Shown: piece by piece, positions 1-11,940 of the stretch
Layout: every line of letters starts with the position of its first letter
How positions within the stretch are numbered: position 1 is the first letter of the stretch
Assembly (NCBI GenBank): GCA_021774625.1
Contig: JAJFIV010000001.1
Coordinates: 62,001-126,000, forward strand
From: Alphaproteobacteria bacterium
Lineage (GTDB): Bacteria > Pseudomonadota > Alphaproteobacteria > Sphingomonadales > JAKSBY01
Length of the DNA stretch: 64,000 nucleotides
Direction of reading: 5' to 3'
Notes under the pieces: generated by a model
What the model was told of the DNA's origin: nothing
What the model saw: the letters and a program-made list of their open reading frames with translations, nothing else
The model's database searches: none
Position numbers and translations under genes: made by a program

Positions 1-60
1 CAGGCCAACGGCGAACCAGTTCTGGGTTTTGACGTGCTCGGTGATGCGGCGGAGGATCAT
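1..60 (-). CDS. Partial DUF6090-like membrane protein (N-terminus only)
   Basis: Only the first 20 codons are inside the window; the gene runs off the left edge. They read MILRRITEHVKTQNWFAVGL, the same N-terminus as the five typical paralogues upstream, so this is a seventh copy of the tandem family. Its ATG (58-60) overlaps the TGA of the preceding gene by four bases (ATGA), implying translational coupling. Function unknown; the family assignment rests on the paralogues. Confidence 0.75.
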   Translation of the reverse strand, partial: MILRRITEHVKTQNWFAVGL

Positions 61-827
61 GGTGTTTCGACTTCCGATTCAAGAATCACCAAGACCCGCT
101 TTGTTATTTCATGAACTCGGAGGAACCAATTTTCATTGTAGACGCGCATCCCATAAAACGCGCGCAGCCCTTTCGTAAATTCTGGATCAATGAGCGCCTC
201 CTCCAGGACTGTTTCTGGATTCGGAGATCCCGCCTGAAACGTTGACTGAATAAAAGCACTCCCGAAAGCCGGCGTTGCGGCCCCATGATTAAAGCCTATC
301 GCCCTGACCGCTTCCTCTCGCTCGGCGCTGTGTTCCAGGAGAGCGCTGCGTACACGCTCAGATCGGATCAATCTGAAATCACCACTGGTGACAAGCTGCT
401 GGAACGTAATCGAAATATCGGGTCGGCGCTCGCCACCAAACGCTGTGGCAAACAACTCGGAAGCAGAACTGTCGGACATTTCTCGCGCCAGATCCGGCGC
501 CTCGGATTCGTAGTAATCAACGAAGAGTGCCCGAAGCCTACGCAAGTCCAGCGATTCATCATCCTCGGCAGCATCGATCCAGCGTGCCATGAGTTGCCGC
601 TGCTGGGCTGAACGCACCAGATAGGCATCGCCTTTTTCGGCAATGTCGCGATATTCTGCAGCCAGGCGTGCGAGAATCGCTTGTTCTTCCAGGAGTGCTA
701 TCCGGCTTTCATTCCAATTCGCAACCTGAATACCGATGAAAACACCGACAACGACGATGACAAAGTCGAGACCAACGGCGAACCAGTTCTGGGTTTTGAC
801 GTGCTCGGTGATGCGGCGCAGGATCAT
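57..827 (-). CDS. DUF6090-like single-pass membrane protein, copy 1
   Basis: 256 aa. A basic N-terminus (MILRRITEHVKTQNW) precedes one hydrophobic helix (about residues 18-36) ending in the NWN motif at 37-39, then a charged helical stretch (40-110). A conserved family motif follows, LVTSGDFRLIRS (about 145-156). This layout (membrane anchor, NWNE, later 'E-L-x-x-S-G-x-(L/F)-x-x-(I/L)') resembles the DUF6090 family; that is recalled, not searched. Function is unknown. The body most likely faces the periplasm if the basic N-terminus stays inside. Last complete member of the array, with ATGA overlaps at both ends. Confidence 0.75.
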   Translation of the reverse strand: MILRRITEHVKTQNWFAVGLDFVIVVVGVFIGIQVANWNESRIALLEEQAILARLAAEYRDIAEKGDAYLVRSAQQRQLMARWIDAAEDDESLDLRRLRALFVDYYESEAPDLAREMSDSSASELFATAFGGERRPDISITFQQLVTSGDFRLIRSERVRSALLEHSAEREEAVRAIGFNHGAATPAFGSAFIQSTFQAGSPNPETVLEEALIDPEFTKGLRAFYGMRVYNENWFLRVHEITKRVLVILESEVETP

Positions 828-1564
828 GGGCGAGTCCTGCTTTCCAGTGATGCATTGCCGAGATGTTCTTCGAGAAGGGCGGCTAATTCAACACTCCGAT
901 CAACAATTGTAATAGATACAGTTTGCCAGTCCCTTTGCATATCGATGATTTCAACCATTGCGTTGATGATCTCACGATTATGACAGAGCTCAGCCAGATC
1001 GTATTCAGCCAATATCGGTTTCCCCTTCTCATCCGTAGAAAGTTGAACACTCTCCCAGATTATTTGGTCAACCACTGCCAAACTATCCCGAATCCGCGGC
1101 ACATTTCGGTGAAAGTTTTCTATCTCGGTAAAAAAATCAGCAATCGACTTTTTCAAATTGTCATCTTGAAGCGCGGCGAGTGCTCCCGATGACAGCATTT
1201 CATTATAGGTTGCATCACGCACCTGAAAGCCCACTGTATTCTGATACTGTGTGAACGTACGATCAAAATCCTCCCGGGTCGCACCCTCCGGCGAACATGT
1301 TTCTATCGCCCGCAGGACGCTGATCATTGAATCCTGCAGGCCAGCGGCTATCGTGCGAGGGCGATCAAGACTTTCATTGATCGCGACAACATCCTGTTTC
1401 AGGGCAATGAGGTAGGATTTCTCCCGCGCTTGCGATTTTCTACCGTCATTCCAATTGGAAACCTGAATACCGATGAAGACACCGGCAACGACAATGAAAA
1501 AGTCGAGACCAACGGCGAACCAGTTCTGGGTTTTGACGTGCTCGGTGATGCGGCGGAGGATCAT
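824..1564 (-). CDS. DUF6090-like single-pass membrane protein, copy 2
   Basis: 246 aa. The N-terminus is nearly identical to copy 1 (MILRRITEHVKTQNWFAVGLD), followed by one transmembrane helix and NWNDG. The body differs strongly from the other copies apart from the shared motif YNEMLSSGALAALQDDNLKK (about residues 122-141). The region after the anchor is predicted helical and charged. ATGA overlaps join it to copies 3 and 1, so it belongs to one co-translated series. No catalytic motif is visible. Function unknown. Confidence 0.75.
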   Translation of the reverse strand: MILRRITEHVKTQNWFAVGLDFFIVVAGVFIGIQVSNWNDGRKSQAREKSYLIALKQDVVAINESLDRPRTIAAGLQDSMISVLRAIETCSPEGATREDFDRTFTQYQNTVGFQVRDATYNEMLSSGALAALQDDNLKKSIADFFTEIENFHRNVPRIRDSLAVVDQIIWESVQLSTDEKGKPILAEYDLAELCHNREIINAMVEIIDMQRDWQTVSITIVDRSVELAALLEEHLGNASLESRTRP

Positions 1565-2310
1565 TGTTGCGCCTCCAGTCCGTGATCGACAGCAAGAACG
1601 CGGTCGAGTTCGATATGAATGCGTTCGAGCAGGACGCGCTCCGGCGCCAGCAACCTCTGGTGAAAGAAGCCGGCGCGCTCGCGCACCTCGTTGAAGGCGT
1701 TGAGAAAGGCGGGGTCTGTCCGCATGGCGGCGAGATCACATTCATTTGTCACTTTTCGGACGCCGTCTGTGATAGCCACCCGCGTGGCGATCATGGAAGG
1801 AAAGTCCCGCCGCAAAATCGGTGCGCGCGCGCTGACGGCGCCGGCGCGGGACGGCGAAAACCCTGTGAAGGAGAGATAATCCGAAAGCGATTTGAGCAGG
1901 CCCTGATCGCGGATGAGACCGAACTGGCCGCTGGCGACCAGCTCTTCCAGGGTCGGCAGCGCATAGCCTTCCAAATAAAAAATATGAAGACGGGCGATGC
2001 TGTCGCAAGCTTTCGCGTCGAGCTTGACGACCGTCATGTCGTCGCCGAACAGGGCGGACGAAACACGGTCGGCGTCGGCGACCCGGTCGGCGACGTTCTC
2101 GCCAAGGCCCAAGGTTGCTGCCTCCGCCGCCACGGCATCGGCGTGCAGACGCTGAAGATAAGCGGCTTCCCGCTGCCGTTCCTGTCTCTCGGCGTTCCAG
2201 TTACTCACCTGAATACCGACAAACACGCCGACGACAACGATGACGAAGTCGAGCGCCACCGCGAACCAGTTCTGGGTTTTGACGTGTTCTGTAATGCGGC
2301 GGAGGATCAT
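1561..2310 (-). CDS. DUF6090-like single-pass membrane protein, copy 3
   Basis: 249 aa. It shares the family N-terminus and transmembrane helix (FVIVVVGVFVGIQVSNWN), then an Arg/Glu-rich helix (ERQERQREAAYLQRLH). The family motif reads LEELVASGQFGLIRDQGLLK. The C-terminal half (after about residue 160) has no clear match to its neighbours. Start and stop overlap the flanking copies by ATGA. Function unknown; a membrane-tethered helical sensor or scaffold is only a guess. Confidence 0.75.
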   Translation of the reverse strand: MILRRITEHVKTQNWFAVALDFVIVVVGVFVGIQVSNWNAERQERQREAAYLQRLHADAVAAEAATLGLGENVADRVADADRVSSALFGDDMTVVKLDAKACDSIARLHIFYLEGYALPTLEELVASGQFGLIRDQGLLKSLSDYLSFTGFSPSRAGAVSARAPILRRDFPSMIATRVAITDGVRKVTNECDLAAMRTDPAFLNAFNEVRERAGFFHQRLLAPERVLLERIHIELDRVLAVDHGLEAQQ

Positions 2311-3059
2311 CCGGGGGTCTCGCTATTTTTCTCTAGCGTCGCAATTTGAGCGCGCAATTCCTTTGCGCTCGTCAGCCAGTTGTTCAAGGTGTTAATATCG
2401 TCGCTTCGATTTGCGAGCATCGGCGCCCATTCGAGAAATTCCGGGCGCTCCATCATGCGCCCATAGGCGGCCAAAGCGCTTTCTTCGGTCGCCACGACGT
2501 TCCCGTAAGACGTCACCACGCTCGAATATTGTTCAAGCGTCAGGATGCCGGACGCCCTTTTCATATATTCCGTCTGCCGGATTTCCCGGTAATATCGCCA
2601 TTGATCGTTGCCTTCAATCTGCGTGTAGAATTCCGTGATGCGTGCGCGCAGCACGGGATCGCGCAGAATGCCGAGGTCTCCCACAGACTTGATTTCGTCG
2701 AATGTATCGGAGCGAATGAACGGCGTCAGCGAGTAACCGCCAACGACGACCGCTTCGATGAATTTGCCGGGATTGGCACGCACAAGCTCCGGGTTCTCAG
2801 CGCAGTCCAGCAAATGCCTGGCGAGCGCCGCCCGCTCCCCCGCCTTGCCGATTGCATACTCAATATCGGTGATATTCCGGTCGAGATCTTCGGTGATGCG
2901 CGCCAGATATTGCTGTTCGCGATGGCGATCGGCCCGCGCCTCGTTCCACTCTGTGATCTGGAAGGCGATCAGGATGCCGACCACGACGATAACGAAGTCG
3001 AGCGCGACTGCGAACCAGTTCTGGGTTTTGACGTGCTCGGTGATGCGGCGCAGGATCAT
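2307..3059 (-). CDS. DUF6090-like single-pass membrane protein, copy 4
   Basis: 250 aa. Typical N-terminus, then a slightly altered membrane helix ending in ITEWNEA (NWN replaced by EWN). The family motif is FDEIKSVGDLGILRDPVLRA, where the usual SG is VG. The rest is helical and charged with no recognised domain. ATGA overlaps with copies 5 and 3 keep it in the co-translated array. Function unknown. Confidence 0.75.
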   Translation of the reverse strand: MILRRITEHVKTQNWFAVALDFVIVVVGILIAFQITEWNEARADRHREQQYLARITEDLDRNITDIEYAIGKAGERAALARHLLDCAENPELVRANPGKFIEAVVVGGYSLTPFIRSDTFDEIKSVGDLGILRDPVLRARITEFYTQIEGNDQWRYYREIRQTEYMKRASGILTLEQYSSVVTSYGNVVATEESALAAYGRMMERPEFLEWAPMLANRSDDINTLNNWLTSAKELRAQIATLEKNSETPG

Positions 3060-3814
3060 TGCGCTGAGCTTTCTGTCGCCGGAATGTATTGTGGGTCGAT
3101 CAGTTCCTTAAGGCGGGCATCGATCTCGTGCGAGATTTCCAACAAGTCGGCGCGGAACCGCTTTATGACATCCTGATCGCGATATAGTTGTGCGATCACA
3201 GAAGGCATGCGCGGGTCGGCGCGCATACCGTTCACGTCGAAGCGGCAGGTCACGCCGCCATAGGTGTTCTTTTTTCCTTCTTCTCTGATGATCGCCCATT
3301 CGCGATAGTCCTCAAGCGGGATGGCGGCGCGTTGAATCGCCGGCGTAACCATATCAAGGCGCGCCGCTTCCGCCTGCGCCGCTTGCTGGCGCGACAACAA
3401 GATCCGCAGTTCTTCATCGCGTAGAATGCTCAAGGCGCCGCTGGCGACGAGTTCGTCATACGTCCCCTGCTGCAATGTCGCCCCCGGCTGCACAAAGAAC
3501 CGGCACAGCGTGCCCTGGAGTACGGCGTCAGGAAGCGCTTCGCCGTCATTGAGCAGCACGTGCTCCAGATCCGCGAGTACGGCGGCGCGACGGTCGTGCA
3601 AAACAATAACACCGGTTAATTCGGCGATGTTCGCCTGCGTATCAGCGAAAAGGCGAATGAGGTAGCGCTTCTCAGCGGCGCGTTCGGATCGCGCATCGTT
3701 CCAGTTGGCGACCTGAATGCCGATGAAGACGCCAAAAACAACGATCAGGAAATCGAGCGCAATCGCGGTCCATTCCTGTTTGCGAAAATGCGATATGACG
3801 CGGCGGAGGATCAT
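3056..3814 (-). CDS. DUF6090-like single-pass membrane protein, copy 5 (divergent)
   Basis: 252 aa. This copy differs from the rest already at its start (MILRRVISHFRKQEWTAIAL), and its first 60 bases lack the near-identity shared by the others. The anchor helix and NWNDARSERAAEKRYLIRL still align, as does YDELVASGALSILRDEELR. It therefore looks like an older or independently acquired member that has not been homogenised. It has the same ATGA overlaps as the others. Function unknown. Confidence 0.75.
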   Translation of the reverse strand: MILRRVISHFRKQEWTAIALDFLIVVFGVFIGIQVANWNDARSERAAEKRYLIRLFADTQANIAELTGVIVLHDRRAAVLADLEHVLLNDGEALPDAVLQGTLCRFFVQPGATLQQGTYDELVASGALSILRDEELRILLSRQQAAQAEAARLDMVTPAIQRAAIPLEDYREWAIIREEGKKNTYGGVTCRFDVNGMRADPRMPSVIAQLYRDQDVIKRFRADLLEISHEIDARLKELIDPQYIPATESSAQ

Positions 3815-4515
3815 TTTCGGACGTCCGCGATTTCTTGCATGACGACATCCACATCTGATTGTAATTTATCAAGAATTTGCGAAAGAGCTGCCTTACCATA
3901 ATAGAGGACCTGAAACTGTTGACGGGTTCCGGCCAACTTGTCCCAGTCATACTGGTCAAATAAAGGCGCGTCGCCTGATCCGTGATCCGGGTTCACATGG
4001 ACGGCATCATGAAAGCCTTCATTCGGGGCTGATGCCCGGTCAAGAATGACAGCGACGAGTTCAGCGTGAGACTGCATCGTCGCATGATATGCCGTCAGCG
4101 CTTTTCTGAGTTCCGGAGACGAAAGAGCGGAGAACGTTCCGGATGCTAACAGCTCGACCAGCGTGACGGGTTCCGGCGGCCCATCCGTAAAGCTGCCTGC
4201 TTCCTGCAGAGTGATTGTAAAAGCCTCCACATCGCAGGGCTCTACACCTTCCCGGATGACCCGCAAAACAGATCGCACTGCGTCGAGCTTTTCTTTGGCA
4301 CGAGGTCTGGCTTCTTCCAAGCCCGCTGCAACCTGAGTGAATTCATCATGAAGCTGGCTCAGGATAACGGCCTCTTTGGCCGCCGCATGTTGCGCTTCGT
4401 TCCAGTTCGAGACCTGAATGCCGACAAACACGCCGACGACGACGATGACGAAGTCGAGGGCCACCGCGAACCAGTTCTGGGTTTTGACGTGTTCGGTGAT
4501 GCGGCGCAGGATCAT
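3811..4515 (-). CDS. DUF6090-like single-pass membrane protein, copy 6
   Basis: 234 aa, the shortest complete copy and the first of the array to be translated. N-terminus MILRRITEHVKTQNWFAVAL, one membrane helix, SNWNEAQ, and family motif LVELLASGTFSALSSPELRK. Its ATG overlaps the stop of the upstream secreted-protein gene by ATGA, which ties the array to that gene. Function unknown. Confidence 0.75.
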   Translation of the reverse strand: MILRRITEHVKTQNWFAVALDFVIVVVGVFVGIQVSNWNEAQHAAAKEAVILSQLHDEFTQVAAGLEEARPRAKEKLDAVRSVLRVIREGVEPCDVEAFTITLQEAGSFTDGPPEPVTLVELLASGTFSALSSPELRKALTAYHATMQSHAELVAVILDRASAPNEGFHDAVHVNPDHGSGDAPLFDQYDWDKLAGTRQQFQVLYYGKAALSQILDKLQSDVDVVMQEIADVRK

Positions 4516-7088: not shown

Positions 7089-7165
7089 TGGCGGGAGTGA
7101 CGGGACTCGAACCCGCGGCCTCTGGCGTGACAGGCCAGCGCTCTAACCAACTGAGCTACACCCCC
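7089..7165 (-). tRNA. tRNA-Asp (GTC)
   Basis: 77-nt cloverleaf on the minus strand with encoded CCA. The acceptor GGGGGTG pairs with CACTCCC, and the anticodon arm CTGGC-CTGTCAC-GCCAG gives anticodon GTC. The T-arm reads GGTTCGAGTCC. Confidence 0.95.
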
Positions 7166-7254: not shown

Positions 7255-7330
7255 TGGTGGGCGGTGACAGGCTCGAACTGCCGACCCTCTCGGTGTAAAC
7301 GAGATGCTCTACCAACTGAGCTAACCGCCC
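7255..7330 (-). tRNA. tRNA-Val (TAC)
   Basis: 76-nt cloverleaf with encoded CCA. The acceptor GGGCGGT pairs with ACCGCCC, and the anticodon arm TCTCG-TTTACAC-CGAGA gives anticodon TAC. It lies 89 bp from tRNA-Asp on the same strand, probably co-transcribed. Confidence 0.95.
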
Positions 7331-7421: not shown

Positions 7422-7450
7422 TTGGCCTCATTAGACACAGTTGATACAAT
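7422..7450 (+). promoter_or_regulatory. Candidate sigma-70-type promoter for cas13a
   Basis: TTGGCC (7422-7427), a 17-bp spacer, then TACAAT (7445-7450; five of six to consensus). It would start transcription near 7457 and leave about 30 nt before the cas13a ATG. Pattern match only. Confidence 0.45.
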
Positions 7451-7488: not shown

Positions 7489-10400
7489 ATGAAACTGATC
7501 ACACCATATGGCCGCAGCCGCACAGAATCGCGGCGCGTGCTCCGTCTCAAACCGCTCTTGAGCGAAGAACGCGACGTTCCGCAATTCGCCCGGTCCGATG
7601 ACCGGCTGGTCATCGCGCAATGGATATCGGCAATCGACAAAATCGCGAGGAAGCCGGCTTCATCGGACAAGAAACCGACACCGGAACAACGCGACCTTCG
7701 CGAGAGGCTTGGCAAGGCCTGCTGGGCGCTGATATGCGAGAGAGAATTGCTGAACGGCAATCTGCCCGAGGGTATCGACGCGGAGACGCTGTGGCGGAGC
7801 AAGGTGCATCCATACAAGGACGGCGTTTATGCGCCGAATAACGGTAAGCAGCCATCCGCCAAAGGCCTCTGGTATAAGCGTTTTGCCAGCGATGTGCCTC
7901 CCGGAGAGGCTGACGGGGTCGCCATCGCGGGCCGGATTTACGAGCATCTCTATAAAGCGGAATACCGCCTCGATCCGGGGCGTCCCAATAAAAGGCAGGG
8001 CAAGATCGCCAGTCGCGCCGAAAGCATTGAAAAGAATGTACTCACCCCTCCAGCGGCCGGGTTGGAGTGGGGGCCTGCGGATGAAAAGAAATATGAAGAA
8101 GCCGGCGATGTGGCGAGTGGGATTTATGAAGCAGCAAAGACCAGTGCGGAGAAAACCCGGCCAGTGCGTCTGTCACTGGCCGGTGAAAAGCTTCATGCGC
8201 ATTATGGCACGCTGTTTGGCGCTGTCGGGATCGCCGAAGCCAAACAATGCTCAGAACAACTGTTCGCTCTGCATATGGCGGTGAAGGATTGCTATGCGCG
8301 GCTTTTAAAGAAGCAGAAAAAAGATCATGGCAATGAGCGCCGAAAAAGCAAAGCCATCCTTAGAATTCTGCCGCAGAATAAGGATGCGTTGTTTGCCTTG
8401 ATCCAAAAACAGCGCCGCAACCGCGATCTCAACCACCTGATACGACTGGGCAAGATCATCCATTATCAGGCGGGCACAGACCAGGGCGAAGACACGGGAG
8501 ACAGCACGGCAGCCATTCTGGCGCACTGGCCCACGGATGTGACCGGCAGCCGCTACTGGACCAGCGACGGCCAAGCGGAGATCAAGCGCAACGAGGCCTT
8601 CGTGCGGGTCTGGCGCCGGGTGCTGGCGCTGATGCAGCGCACGGCGACCGACTGGGCCGATCCAGACGGGCAGCAGGGCACGGATATTCTCGGCTCGTGC
8701 GCCATTACGGCCGTCACCGGCAATGCTTTTCCAGAAAGCAGCTTTGATGGCAAGCTTGCTTTGCTGTTTGGCAATCGCGCCAATCTGTTTGACCCCGGTG
8801 GCCCTATTGATCTGGCCCACAAAAAAGCGGTTTTAAAAACGGCGCTCGAAGGCCTAGCCACGCTGCGGCACAGCGCTTTTCACTTCAAGGGGCTGGACAG
8901 TTTTGCGAAGGGTCTGGAAGGGCTCGGCAGCGCGGAATGTTTCGTAGGAAAAGAAATCGGCAATCTATGGCAGCAGGATGCGCAGGACAGAGCGCAGCGC
9001 GTCCGCAAGACGCTTGAAGGCGCCGATTGCGCCTATTTCCTGAAAGACCATCAGGCGAAAAAGCTGCTTTTTGCGCTCACGGATTTCACACCCGCCACCC
9101 TGCCGCTGCCGCGCTTTAACCGGGTGGTCGCGCGCGCGGAAAACACATGGAAGGGCAAGCACAGCCTGTCCCTGCCGAAATCCGTCAGCCGCCTGGATAT
9201 GAAGGAAAGCCCGGCCATCCGCTGCCGCTATATCTGCCTCAAGCTGCTGTACGAGCGGCCCTTCCGCCACTGGATAGAAACAGCAGATACGAAGACCCTG
9301 AACGGATTCATCGCGAAAACGGTTGAGCGGGGAACACGGGCTGCGCAAAACATCAACGCCAAAAACAAGAGTGGCGAAGAACGCGCGCTCGTCGCCTCGA
9401 AAGCATCGAGCCTTGGCGCACTTGCCGAAGACGAGATCATTCAGGCCTTCTTCTTCCGCCTCTCCGCCGCCACGGCCACGGACATGCGCGTGCAGCGCGG
9501 TTACGAGAGCGATGCCAAACAGGCGCAAAGCCAAGCCAAGCATATCGAAGACCTGAAATGCGAGCTTCTGGCCCTCGCCTTCGATAATTGGCTCGAGCGG
9601 GAAGATTACCGCTTCCTTCTGGACCTGCCGGAAAATGCTGTCAAGCCGGATCAGCCGGTCTGCGCCCTGCCTAATGTTGAGGTCAATGAAGAACCGGGCG
9701 AACACTGGCAGCGGCACCTCTATTTCCTGCTGCATCTCGCGCCGGTGGGCGCGGTGTCGTCGCTCCTGCATCAGATGCGCAAATGGGACCTGCTGGCGGG
9801 TCCGGAGCCGACCGCCGACAAGGTCCGAGCCGCGAAGGTCATGCGGGTGCTCGAGCTTTGGCTCGACATGCATGATGCGAAGTTCGTGGGCGGGGTCGCG
9901 TCCATATCTGGCGCCGAAAGGCTGACGCCCCTTTATGAGCAGGAGGAAGATTTCAACAGCGTCTTCCCGCCTGCCACCGGTGATGCGGACGACGACCGCC
10001 GCATTCCCGTGCGCGGCCTGCGCGAGATCCTGCGCTTCGGGCATCTGAAACCGCTGTGGCCGATCTTCAAGGCGCACAGGGTGACGCCGCAGGAGGTGGA
10101 GGCTTTCAATGAAGGCGAGGGAACCAGCGCAGAGAAACAGGCCACGCGAGAAGACCTGCATGGTGACTGGGTAAGATGCAATAATAAAAAGCATTTTCCA
10201 AATTCCAAGAAAAACTCATATCGCGAGGCTCTGCAAAAAGTCACCGCCCATCGCCACCGCGCCGCGCGCGTGCTGCTGACCGATCATGCCCGGCTGCACG
10301 ATCTGATGATGGCGGTGCTGGGCCGGCTGGTGGATTATGCCGGATTGTTTGAGCGCGATCTTTATTTCGTCACGCTGGCGCTGATTCATAAGGCGGGTAA

Positions 10401-10953
10401 AAAGCCGGAGGATGTGTTCGATGGGAAAGGGATAAGGAAGCTCGAAACAGGTCAGATCATCGCCGCCTTGGGCCGCACATCGGGCGATGGGGCGAAAGAC
10501 ATAAAACAAGACCTTGGGAATTATTTTGGTGCTGTCTGGGATAAAGAAAACGAGCGCCGCAGCTTTCGCAACCGTTTCGCCCATTTCAACATGCTGCGTA
10601 GCAACGAATCCCTTGATCTCACGCGCGAGGTCAATGACGCCCGCACCATGATGGCCTATGACCGCAAGCTCAGGAACGCGGTCGCGAAATCGGTCATCGA
10701 GCTGCTCGGGCGCGAGGGGCTGGACCTCGAATGGATGATGAACGGCGAACACAGGCTCTATCACGCGCAGATCGCGACCCGGAAGGCGGCGCATCTGGGC
10801 GGAACAGGGAAGATCAAGGAGGAGCTGCACGGCGCAGGCTATGTCGCGATGGTTGCCGCGCTGTTCGCCGGCCAGGCGCCGCCGCCGGAAGCTGCCCGGG
10901 CGGACGCCCGCAAACGGGGGAAAAATGGCGAAAAAAAACGCCGTGCCCGTTGA
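7489..10953 (+). CDS. cas13a: Cas13a, type VI-A CRISPR RNA-guided RNase
   Basis: 1154 aa. Two R-x4-H HEPN nuclease motifs are present: R460-HSAF-H465 (HEPN1) and R1027-NRFA-H1032 (HEPN2). Their mid-protein plus C-terminal placement matches Cas13a, whereas Cas13b carries them near the two ends. Segments recall Rhodobacter capsulatus Cas13a from memory: QWISAIDKIARKP (N-terminus), YEHL, GYESDA, SSLLHQMRKWD, LMMAVLGRLVDYAG, AHFNMLR and MMAYDRKLRNAV. The family processes pre-crRNA, binds a 5'-repeat crRNA, and cleaves target and bystander RNA after target recognition. The protein ends about 120 residues after HEPN2 with a basic tail (RKRGKNGEKKRRAR); I recall the R. capsulatus protein having a longer C-terminal extension. 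The array lies 80 bp downstream on the same strand. GGGA precedes the ATG by about 9 bases. Confidence 0.95.
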   Translation: MKLITPYGRSRTESRRVLRLKPLLSEERDVPQFARSDDRLVIAQWISAIDKIARKPASSDKKPTPEQRDLRERLGKACWALICERELLNGNLPEGIDAETLWRSKVHPYKDGVYAPNNGKQPSAKGLWYKRFASDVPPGEADGVAIAGRIYEHLYKAEYRLDPGRPNKRQGKIASRAESIEKNVLTPPAAGLEWGPADEKKYEEAGDVASGIYEAAKTSAEKTRPVRLSLAGEKLHAHYGTLFGAVGIAEAKQCSEQLFALHMAVKDCYARLLKKQKKDHGNERRKSKAILRILPQNKDALFALIQKQRRNRDLNHLIRLGKIIHYQAGTDQGEDTGDSTAAILAHWPTDVTGSRYWTSDGQAEIKRNEAFVRVWRRVLALMQRTATDWADPDGQQGTDILGSCAITAVTGNAFPESSFDGKLALLFGNRANLFDPGGPIDLAHKKAVLKTALEGLATLRHSAFHFKGLDSFAKGLEGLGSAECFVGKEIGNLWQQDAQDRAQRVRKTLEGADCAYFLKDHQAKKLLFALTDFTPATLPLPRFNRVVARAENTWKGKHSLSLPKSVSRLDMKESPAIRCRYICLKLLYERPFRHWIETADTKTLNGFIAKTVERGTRAAQNINAKNKSGEERALVASKASSLGALAEDEIIQAFFFRLSAATATDMRVQRGYESDAKQAQSQAKHIEDLKCELLALAFDNWLEREDYRFLLDLPENAVKPDQPVCALPNVEVNEEPGEHWQRHLYFLLHLAPVGAVSSLLHQMRKWDLLAGPEPTADKVRAAKVMRVLELWLDMHDAKFVGGVASISGAERLTPLYEQEEDFNSVFPPATGDADDDRRIPVRGLREILRFGHLKPLWPIFKAHRVTPQEVEAFNEGEGTSAEKQATREDLHGDWVRCNNKKHFPNSKKNSYREALQKVTAHRHRAARVLLTDHARLHDLMMAVLGRLVDYAGLFERDLYFVTLALIHKAGKKPEDVFDGKGIRKLETGQIIAALGRTSGDGAKDIKQDLGNYFGAVWDKENERRSFRNRFAHFNMLRSNESLDLTREVNDARTMMAYDRKLRNAVAKSVIELLGREGLDLEWMMNGEHRLYHAQIATRKAAHLGGTGKIKEELHGAGYVAMVAALFAGQAPPPEAARADARKRGKNGEKKRRAR

Positions 10954-11005
10954 ACAAAAAGAAAACGAATGTCAGAATTCTGCTTGCCTTGTTACCAGAA
11001 AATGT

Positions 11006-11034
11006 TTGGAATTCCATCAGTTATGCCATATCAG
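11006..11034 (+). promoter_or_regulatory. Weak candidate array promoter
   Basis: TTGGAA, 17 bp, TATCAG; the -10-like element ends at the first base of repeat 1. The 80-bp cas13a-array gap is otherwise featureless, so the array may simply be read through from cas13a. Low confidence. Confidence 0.2.
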
Positions 11035-11530
11035 GTATGGATTACCCCCAAATAAAGGGGGACTGCACCTTCCTTTCTGTGTTTATAATAGTCTCCTTTG
11101 GTATGGATTACCCCCAAATAAAGGGGGACTGCACCATAAAGGTATAGAAGGATGAAACATGGCTGGGTATGGATTACCCCCAAATAAAGGGGGACTGCAC
11201 CGAGGTATGGATTGGTCATATCTCCACCCCGGTATGGATTACCCCCAAATAAAGGGGGACTGCACCCCTTGTAATGCCCGACGAGACCCGGCGCAGGGTA
11301 TGGATTACCCCCAAATAAAGGGGGACTGCACCGATTCCAAAGCAATTCCGCCAAGTCGTAGAGGTATGGATTACCCCCAAATAAAGGGGGACTGCACCAC
11401 GGTCAGATCACTACCGTCCGTCGTGGTCGGTATGGATTACCCCCAAATAAAGGGGGACTGCACCCTCCTGTGCATCCTTCAGAATAGTCTTGTAGGTATG
11501 GATTACCCCCAAATAAAGGGGGACTGCACC
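11034..11530 (+). CRISPR. Type VI-A CRISPR array, 8 repeats, 7 spacers
   Basis: Eight identical 36-bp repeats start at 11034, 11100, 11166, 11231, 11297, 11363, 11429 and 11495. Spacers are 30 bp except the third (29 bp). Each repeat begins GGTATGGATTA, forms a 5-bp stem CCCCC-AAATAAA-GGGGG and ends GACTGCACC. Length, stem position and the post-stem GGGGACT match known Cas13a repeats, which fixes transcription as plus strand, the same as cas13a. Because there is no degenerate terminal repeat, the leader end cannot be told from repeat decay. Spacer 3 contains the first ten bases of the repeat. No spacer match inside the window was noticed. Confidence 0.98.
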
Positions 11531-11608
11531 GCAGGGTTTGTGAGTGTCTTCAGTGAGGAAACACGGCCCCGGGGCGGCCGAACTGTGCAGGGAAAGATTC
11601 AAAATAAA

Positions 11609-11640
11609 AAAGGGCGCACGGAATGATCCGCACGCCCTTT
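11609..11640 (-). terminator. Intrinsic terminator of the HU gene (possibly bidirectional)
   Basis: On the minus strand AAAGGGCG-TG-CGGA, loop TCAT, then TCCG-TG-CGCCCTTT, followed by a T-rich tract. On the plus strand the same hairpin lies 78 bp beyond the last CRISPR repeat and could also end the array transcript, though its T-tract is weaker there. Confidence 0.75.
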
Positions 11641-11661
11641 CTTGAAAACGAAGCCGCAAGA

Positions 11662-11940
11662 TTAGTTTACGGCATCCTTCAAAGCCTTGCCGGCTTTGAA
11701 TTTCGGCTGTTTGGAAGCCGGAATATTGATTTTTTCGCCCGTACGGGGGTTACGTCCCGTGGTTGCGGCGCGATTGGAAACACTGAAGGTCCCAAAGCCG
11801 ACCAGACGAACATCGCCACCCTTGGAAAGGGCTGAGGTAATGGAATCCAATACGGCGTCAACGGCCTTTCCTGCGCTTGCTTTGGAAAGATCGCCAGCCG
11901 CGGCTACTTCTGCAATTAAATCATTTTTATTCAAGGTCAT
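11662..11940 (-). CDS. hup: HU family nucleoid protein
   Basis: 92 aa from this ATG. It has the HU/IHF signature: [23 protein letters not shown], with the Pro-containing DNA-inserting arm (NPRTG) and a C-terminal GKALKDAVN. It binds and bends DNA as a dimer in the nucleoid. The Shine-Dalgarno AAGGGGG directly abuts the ATG. The in-frame TTG two codons later (11934) has 7-bp spacing and would give the canonical 90-aa NKNDLIAEV start, so TTG may be the true initiator. It sits downstream of lon, separated by a terminator and its own promoter. Confidence 0.93.

Follow-up and report, generated by a model that had tools for sequence, protein, structure and literature searches.

The stretch of DNA analysed here, called the window, comprises 64,000 nucleotides of contig JAJFIV010000001.1 (positions 62,001 to 126,000, forward strand) from an alphaproteobacterial genome of the order Sphingomonadales (assembly GCA_021774625.1). 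It carries a cas13a gene followed on the same strand by an array of clustered regularly interspaced short palindromic repeats (CRISPR), and the two almost certainly form a complete type VI-A CRISPR-Cas system without an adaptation module. A first-pass annotation, made from the letters of the DNA alone, had proposed a type VI-A locus at this place. The features of the locus are listed below in window coordinates; crRNA stands for CRISPR RNA and RcCas13a for the Cas13a of Rhodobacter capsulatus.

7422 to 7450, plus strand: promoter-like site upstream of cas13a, TTGGCC-17-TACAAT with an extended -10, by consensus match only
7489 to 10953, plus strand: cas13a, an intact open reading frame (ORF) of 1154 aa from ATG start to stop
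8866 to 8883, plus strand: HEPN1 motif R460-HSAF-H465 (RHSAFH), invariant in alignments of 5 and of 15 Cas13a proteins
10567 to 10584, plus strand: HEPN2 motif R1027-NRFA-H1032 (RNRFAH), invariant in the same alignments and aligned with R1052/H1057 of RcCas13a
10663 to 10752, plus strand: putative pre-crRNA processing residues R1059, N1063 and H1088, aligned with R1085, N1089 and H1113 of RcCas13a
10954 to 11033, plus strand: A+T-rich leader of 80 nt from the cas13a stop to the array, with the 3' end TTATGCCATATCA
11034 to 11530, plus strand: CRISPR array of 8 identical 36-bp repeats (GGTATGGATTACCCCCAAATAAAGGGGGACTGCACC) and 7 spacers
11202 to 11230, plus strand: spacer 3, the sole 29-nt spacer, which begins with GA and has the first 10 nt of the repeat (GGTATGGATT) at nt 3-12

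The 1154-aa protein matched NF038188, the curated NCBIfam equivalog for type VI-A Cas13a, with 788 bits against a cut-off of 150 bits, residues 1-1126 aligning with model positions 1-1192. Significant matches in NCBIfam were to Cas13a models only, the same was true in PADLOC (754 bits), and a Pfam search of the protein gave no match. Profile searching, which the annotation had named as a check on its assignment, put Cas13a models first and brought up no non-Cas13 HEPN family. Among the chains of the Protein Data Bank (PDB), phmmer placed RcCas13a (7os0) first with an E value of 4e-99, followed by Leptotrichia buccalis Cas13a (LbuCas13a) and other Cas13a chains; the matches were all Cas13a chains except for one riboendonuclease entry that bears the label Cas9. 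An AlphaFold2 model built from 15 sequences of the protein's own clade had a mean predicted local distance difference test score of 79 and a predicted template modelling (TM) score of 0.73. In a Foldseek comparison it matched 7os0 best (TM 0.77 and 0.78-0.79) and other Cas13a structures next; ranks 1-18 were Cas13a or riboendonuclease (Cas13-type) entries and the first match outside Cas13 had an E value of 0.2. The protein is predicted from this model to have the Cas13a fold, including the crRNA-binding lobe.

In RcCas13a the target-RNA site is made up of R464/H469 and R1052/H1057; for pre-crRNA processing R1085 and H1113 are essential, and N1089 has a modulating effect (PMC8776769). R460/H465, R1027/H1032, R1059, N1063 and H1088 of the window protein match these sites, and all are retained in the phmmer alignments and in an alignment of 20 sequences. 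Because every residue of the RcCas13a sites is kept, the target-RNA and pre-crRNA processing sites both look intact, and the annotation's apparently intact effector, with its two R-x4-H motifs where it had placed them, agrees with the full ORF and with this conservation at the level of sequence. It was also right about a C-terminus shorter than that of the R. capsulatus protein: the alignment to 7os0 stops at chain residue 1171 of 1304, where 15 residues remain in the window protein. The domain missing here need not cost the protein its processing activity, because deletion of the C-terminal domain of RcCas13a left pre-crRNA processing unaffected (PMC8776769). The further description of the effector as compact is overstated because 1154 aa is an ordinary size for Cas13a and not markedly below it; LbuCas13a chains in the PDB have 1159-1162 aa and the relatives in our tree mostly have 1171-1360 aa.

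A scan of genome contigs with a five-sequence Cas13a alignment recovered 16 loci, an earlier scan with the single 1154-aa protein having recovered none. Twelve of these loci are alphaproteobacterial; the records of the other four carry the labels Nitrospirales, Binatia, Spirochaeta and Candidatus Symbiobacter. In most relatives an array follows cas13a at a short gap and on the same strand, and the repeat type is kept beside cas13a across the clade. The tree makes the window protein sister to the Cas13a of an uncultured member of the Sphingomonadales (support 100/99; 51% identical) and places it in a 12-row alphaproteobacterial clade (96/93), with R. capsulatus outside (32% identical). The R. 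capsulatus row, of 1111 residues, was pieced together from phmmer segments, so its branch is approximate, and several other rows are long; it is the local placement that is firm. The alphaproteobacterial origin given in the annotation fits these relatives, the host of the sister protein being in the same order. Its placing of the protein in one clade with RcCas13a holds in the broad sense of an alphaproteobacterial Cas13a and fails at the level of the subclade. Cas13a is rare in these groups: among sampled genomes, 2 of 399 from the order and 5 of 385 from the class exceeded the cut-off, with the present genome counted in both, and no Cas13a was found on plasmids or phages.

Several of the relatives have features of their own. 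Two metagenome-assembled genomes, one of Nitrospirales (L026) and one of Candidatus Binatia (L032), carry Cas13a proteins of the alphaproteobacterial clade under the names of other phyla, through either horizontal transfer or misbinning. The Cas13a of L033/L016 has a 123-residue tail past the last conserved Phe, recalling the extra C-terminal domain of RcCas13a, yet it groups with short-tailed proteins. In the same order as the window, L010 (G085 contig 301) is a Cas13a remnant in which the C-terminal part is left in two ORFs beside an integrase-like ORF. In Rhodomicrobium sp. Az07 (L035/L094) cas13a is split between two ORFs and truncated by the end of the contig; upstream of it lies a small array whose repeat is a different one.

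In the window the array begins 80 bp past the cas13a stop, and the position and number of repeats are exactly as annotated. Repeats begin at 11034, 11100, 11166, 11231, 11297, 11363, 11429 and 11495, and the spacers between them measure 30, 30, 29, 30, 30, 30 and 30 nt. This is not a chance arrangement because eight exact 36-mers lie in register; no ninth copy was found in the 2.99-Mb genome by a pattern search allowing up to three mismatches. Each repeat has a CCCCC/GGGGG stem followed by ACT, the Cas13a-like stem-loop described in the first-pass annotation. Thermodynamic folding of a single isolated repeat gave a result no better than that for shuffled sequences (z -0.56), and for this reason covariation was used as the evidence for the stem. 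In 13 clade repeats aligned over 37 columns the five-pair stem was formed in 65 of 65 cells, and four of the five pairs had changed on both sides. None of 500 shuffles equalled the observed pairing or covariation, and shifting the partner by one column lowered the pairing to 68-69%. The ACT after the stem is invariant in the 13 repeats and nearly all of them end in CACC. With curated hidden Markov models, structure prediction and motif conservation, this covariation bears out the annotation's assignment of a type VI-A Cas13a with its cognate array.

The end of the leader, TTATGCCATATCA, resembles those of two relatives (TTATGCCATAGCG in L026 and TTATGTTACAGGC in L032). A 5-bp CCATA/TATGG match between leader and repeat was set aside given that, for VI-A, no leader-repeat hairpin of the kind seen in VI-B has been reported beyond chance (PMC13187072). 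The last repeat (11495-11530) is intact here and degenerate in the relatives L023, L025, L027, L033 and L034; in VI-A systems a last repeat would yield an extraneous crRNA (PMC13187072). The repeat-like segment of spacer 3 could have arisen by chance or by miscopying of a repeat end.

The locus is a further, newly found member of a family that has already been described and is no new kind of system. It resembles RcCas13a (PDB 7os0; PMC8776769) in its full-length fold (TM 0.77-0.79), in both HEPN motifs and in the three processing residues, but differs in identity and subclade and in the missing C-terminal extension. The R. capsulatus VI-A locus (PMC11089165) likewise has an array directly downstream of cas13a in an alphaproteobacterial host; it has two arrays and, next to them, a gene annotated as cas1, whereas the window locus has one array. 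According to Toro et al. 2019 (PMC6753606), members of an alphaproteobacterial Cas13a 'clade 1' have either a fusion of reverse transcriptase and Cas1 (RT-Cas1) plus Cas2 or no adaptation module. The window locus shares with this clade, so described, its alphaproteobacterial affinity, the content of cas13a and array alone and the five-pair stem; the repeats of the RT1 members are given there as 37 nt, against 36 nt here. On our own tree, not that of Toro et al., the locus appears best filed in VI-A 'clade 1', among the kind without adaptation genes. The locus of the sister protein, in the uncultured Sphingomonadales genome N2E045 (L022/L009), is alike in full-length similarity and in the order of cas13a and array. 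It differs in having 1189 aa, 13 repeats and a host with a type II-C system, and it lies between an acetyl-CoA synthetase gene and a fatty-acid oxidation gene, unlike the window locus. The Rhizobium type VI-A/RT1 systems (L036, L037) also combine Cas13a with an array whose repeats have the same pattern, but they have a linked RT-Cas1 fusion and a longer protein with about 25% identity.

The surroundings of the cassette define its site of insertion:

7089 to 7165: tRNA-Asp(GTC)
7255 to 7330, minus strand: tRNA-Val(TAC), left border of the insertion, which adjoins hupB in 18 of 19 relatives
11606 to 11643, minus strand: terminator-like hairpin
11662 to 11940, minus strand: HU gene (hupB-like), right border, neighbour of tRNA-Val in 18 of 19 relatives

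In those 18 relatives tRNA-Val(TAC) comes within a few hundred bp after the HU gene, often with tRNA-Asp(GTC) next, and there is no cas13a between them. In the window the gap is 4.33 kb, and cas13a and the array are all that was recognised in it; the gap showed no sign of an integrase, a transposase or flanking direct repeats. The cassette, with hupB and tRNA-Val on either side, is thus an insertion into a conserved block of housekeeping genes (tig-clpP-clpX-lon-hup) and not into a defence island, because the same genes are contiguous in relatives. The window and sister loci were not inherited at one shared site, since the sister locus lies elsewhere.

By analogy with RcCas13a and other Cas13a enzymes, the array would be transcribed in the cas13a direction and the HEPN2 processing site of Cas13a would cleave the pre-crRNA a few nt 5' of each stem, leaving crRNAs in which a repeat-derived 5' handle precedes a guide of about 30 nt at the 3' end. 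Pairing of the crRNA with a matching transcript, probably from a phage, would bring the two HEPN motifs together as a single RNase site that cuts target and bystander RNA, so that the infected cell stops growing and becomes dormant. In R. capsulatus, growth is inhibited when protospacer RNA activates Cas13a (PMC11089165). Two observations weigh against this account of the locus. The seven spacers had no convincing protospacer in IMG/VR, phages, plasmids or the genome itself, and the sign of an array promoter is the leader resemblance and nothing more; no other finding contradicts the Cas13a assignment. Of promoter-like consensus sites such as the one upstream of cas13a, 4 were found against 1.9 expected. 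The IMG/VR search used exact cores of all seven spacers, and its match for spacer 3 (L073, a 19-nt exact core) was rejected at 21/29 over the whole spacer, which is about chance level. BLAST of the seven spacers against phages and plasmids gave no matches, and the spacers of relatives (about half, the first 1932 nt of the pool) matched phages only at E values near 7. Self-targeting was rejected as well, the best case being 18/30 for spacer 4 on contig 18.

No adaptation genes lie beside cas13a, and the linked RT-Cas1 and Cas2 of VI-A/RT1 systems are absent. The sole Cas1 of the genome belongs to a complete type I-C locus on contig 24 (cas3, cas5c, cas8c, cas7, cas4, cas1c, cas2). The repeats of its array are 32 nt long and the spacers 33-35 nt, where the VI-A array has 36 and 29-30 nt, and the flank of the I-C array is unlike the VI-A leader. 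With array geometry and flank both different, the VI-A spacers are unlikely to have come from the I-C machinery. In that I-C locus (L007, contig 24, 1-9000) 17 repeats are visible and the first two of the spacers read are identical to one another.

These circumstances raise the possibility that the locus, though a genuine VI-A system, has become a frozen relic, gaining no spacers and perhaps no longer under selection in its host. The lack of linked adaptation genes, the different geometry of the only Cas1 system present, the missing protospacers and the fragmented or disrupted cas13a copies in related genomes (G085 and Rhodomicrobium L035) speak for it. However, the ORF is fully open, all catalytic residues are present and the eight repeats are identical, the last included, which suggests little decay; we consider a relic unlikely, if worth keeping in mind. 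A second explanation, that the Cas1-Cas2 of another system (type I-C here, type II-C in relatives) adds spacers in trans, has a precedent in Flavobacterium columnare, where the VI-B system gains spacers through the cas1 of a II-C system (PMC8092290). Type II Cas1 (TIGR03639) occurs in 6 of 15 Cas13a hosts checked, the host of the sister protein among them, and the II-C arrays visible in Cas13a hosts have a 66-bp period, the same as that of VI-A arrays. No type II Cas1 was found in the present genome, though, and its I-C array differs in spacer length, repeat and flank. A leader shared between II-C and VI-A arrays was tried as a sign of such adaptation and rejected, their flanks having no sequence similarity. 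The co-residence of II-C systems, counted from Cas13a hosts alone, is a lead on trans adaptation, and as an explanation for the window locus we hold it improbable. The type II Cas1 loci are L095, L096, L097, L099, L100 and L044-L049, several of which have Cas9-size ORFs. Finally, two R-x4-H motifs are not by themselves specific to Cas13, but a non-Cas13 HEPN RNase of the abortive-infection type placed by chance beside an unrelated array has next to no likelihood when the significant PADLOC and NCBIfam models are all Cas13a, Pfam gives none, the fold matches Cas13a-crRNA complexes over its full length and the repeat type is conserved next to cas13a across the clade.

Read as an apparently intact VI-A system, the locus adds a well-preserved, single-array cassette without adaptation genes, at an insertion site defined by relatives, to an order in which Cas13a is seldom found. 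New spacers, if there are any, would have to be added by the machinery of another system, the cassette having no Cas1 or Cas2 of its own. The locus offers a natural test of spacer gain in RNA-targeting systems without Cas1-Cas2, because the sole Cas1 here serves an array of different geometry while the II-C arrays of related hosts have the same geometry. For the enzyme, it provides a further mid-size Cas13a without the R. capsulatus type of C-terminal extension.

The spacers of the clade showed a lean that was spotted post hoc and depends in part on one Rhizobium array with RT-Cas1. Among 91 pooled spacers from 12 arrays, Shine-Dalgarno cores occurred 15 times on the antisense side and three times on the sense side, and a core with a following ATG occurred five times against one; 16 further spacers had four antisense cores and no sense core. 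The arrays concerned are L022-L037, L090 and L019. Reverse complements with a Shine-Dalgarno core and a start codon come from L023 spacers 3 and 4, L026 spacer 13, L037 spacers 5 and 7 and one spacer in L090. Pooled spacers are also pyrimidine-rich, purines making up 0.47 of them on average (p about 0.001 by spacer and 0.06 by locus). Such a lean would suit guides that base-pair with mRNA, a requirement of Cas13, and is not decided either way by the seven spacers in the window. It is conceivable, though we think it doubtful, that alphaproteobacterial VI-A arrays favour spacers antisense to mRNA, in many cases over the ribosome-binding site and start codon, through the spacers being selected for or taken from translated transcripts, with most loci lacking RT-Cas1 and adaptation supplied in trans by an unrelated Cas1-Cas2.

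Elsewhere in the window, six paralogous genes lie in tandem at positions 57-4515 on the minus strand. Their products, each about 250 aa long, have nearly the same N-terminus (MILRRITEHVKTQNWFAVALDFVIVVVGV...) and match DUF6090 weakly; the genes are a local amplification of a membrane protein gene.

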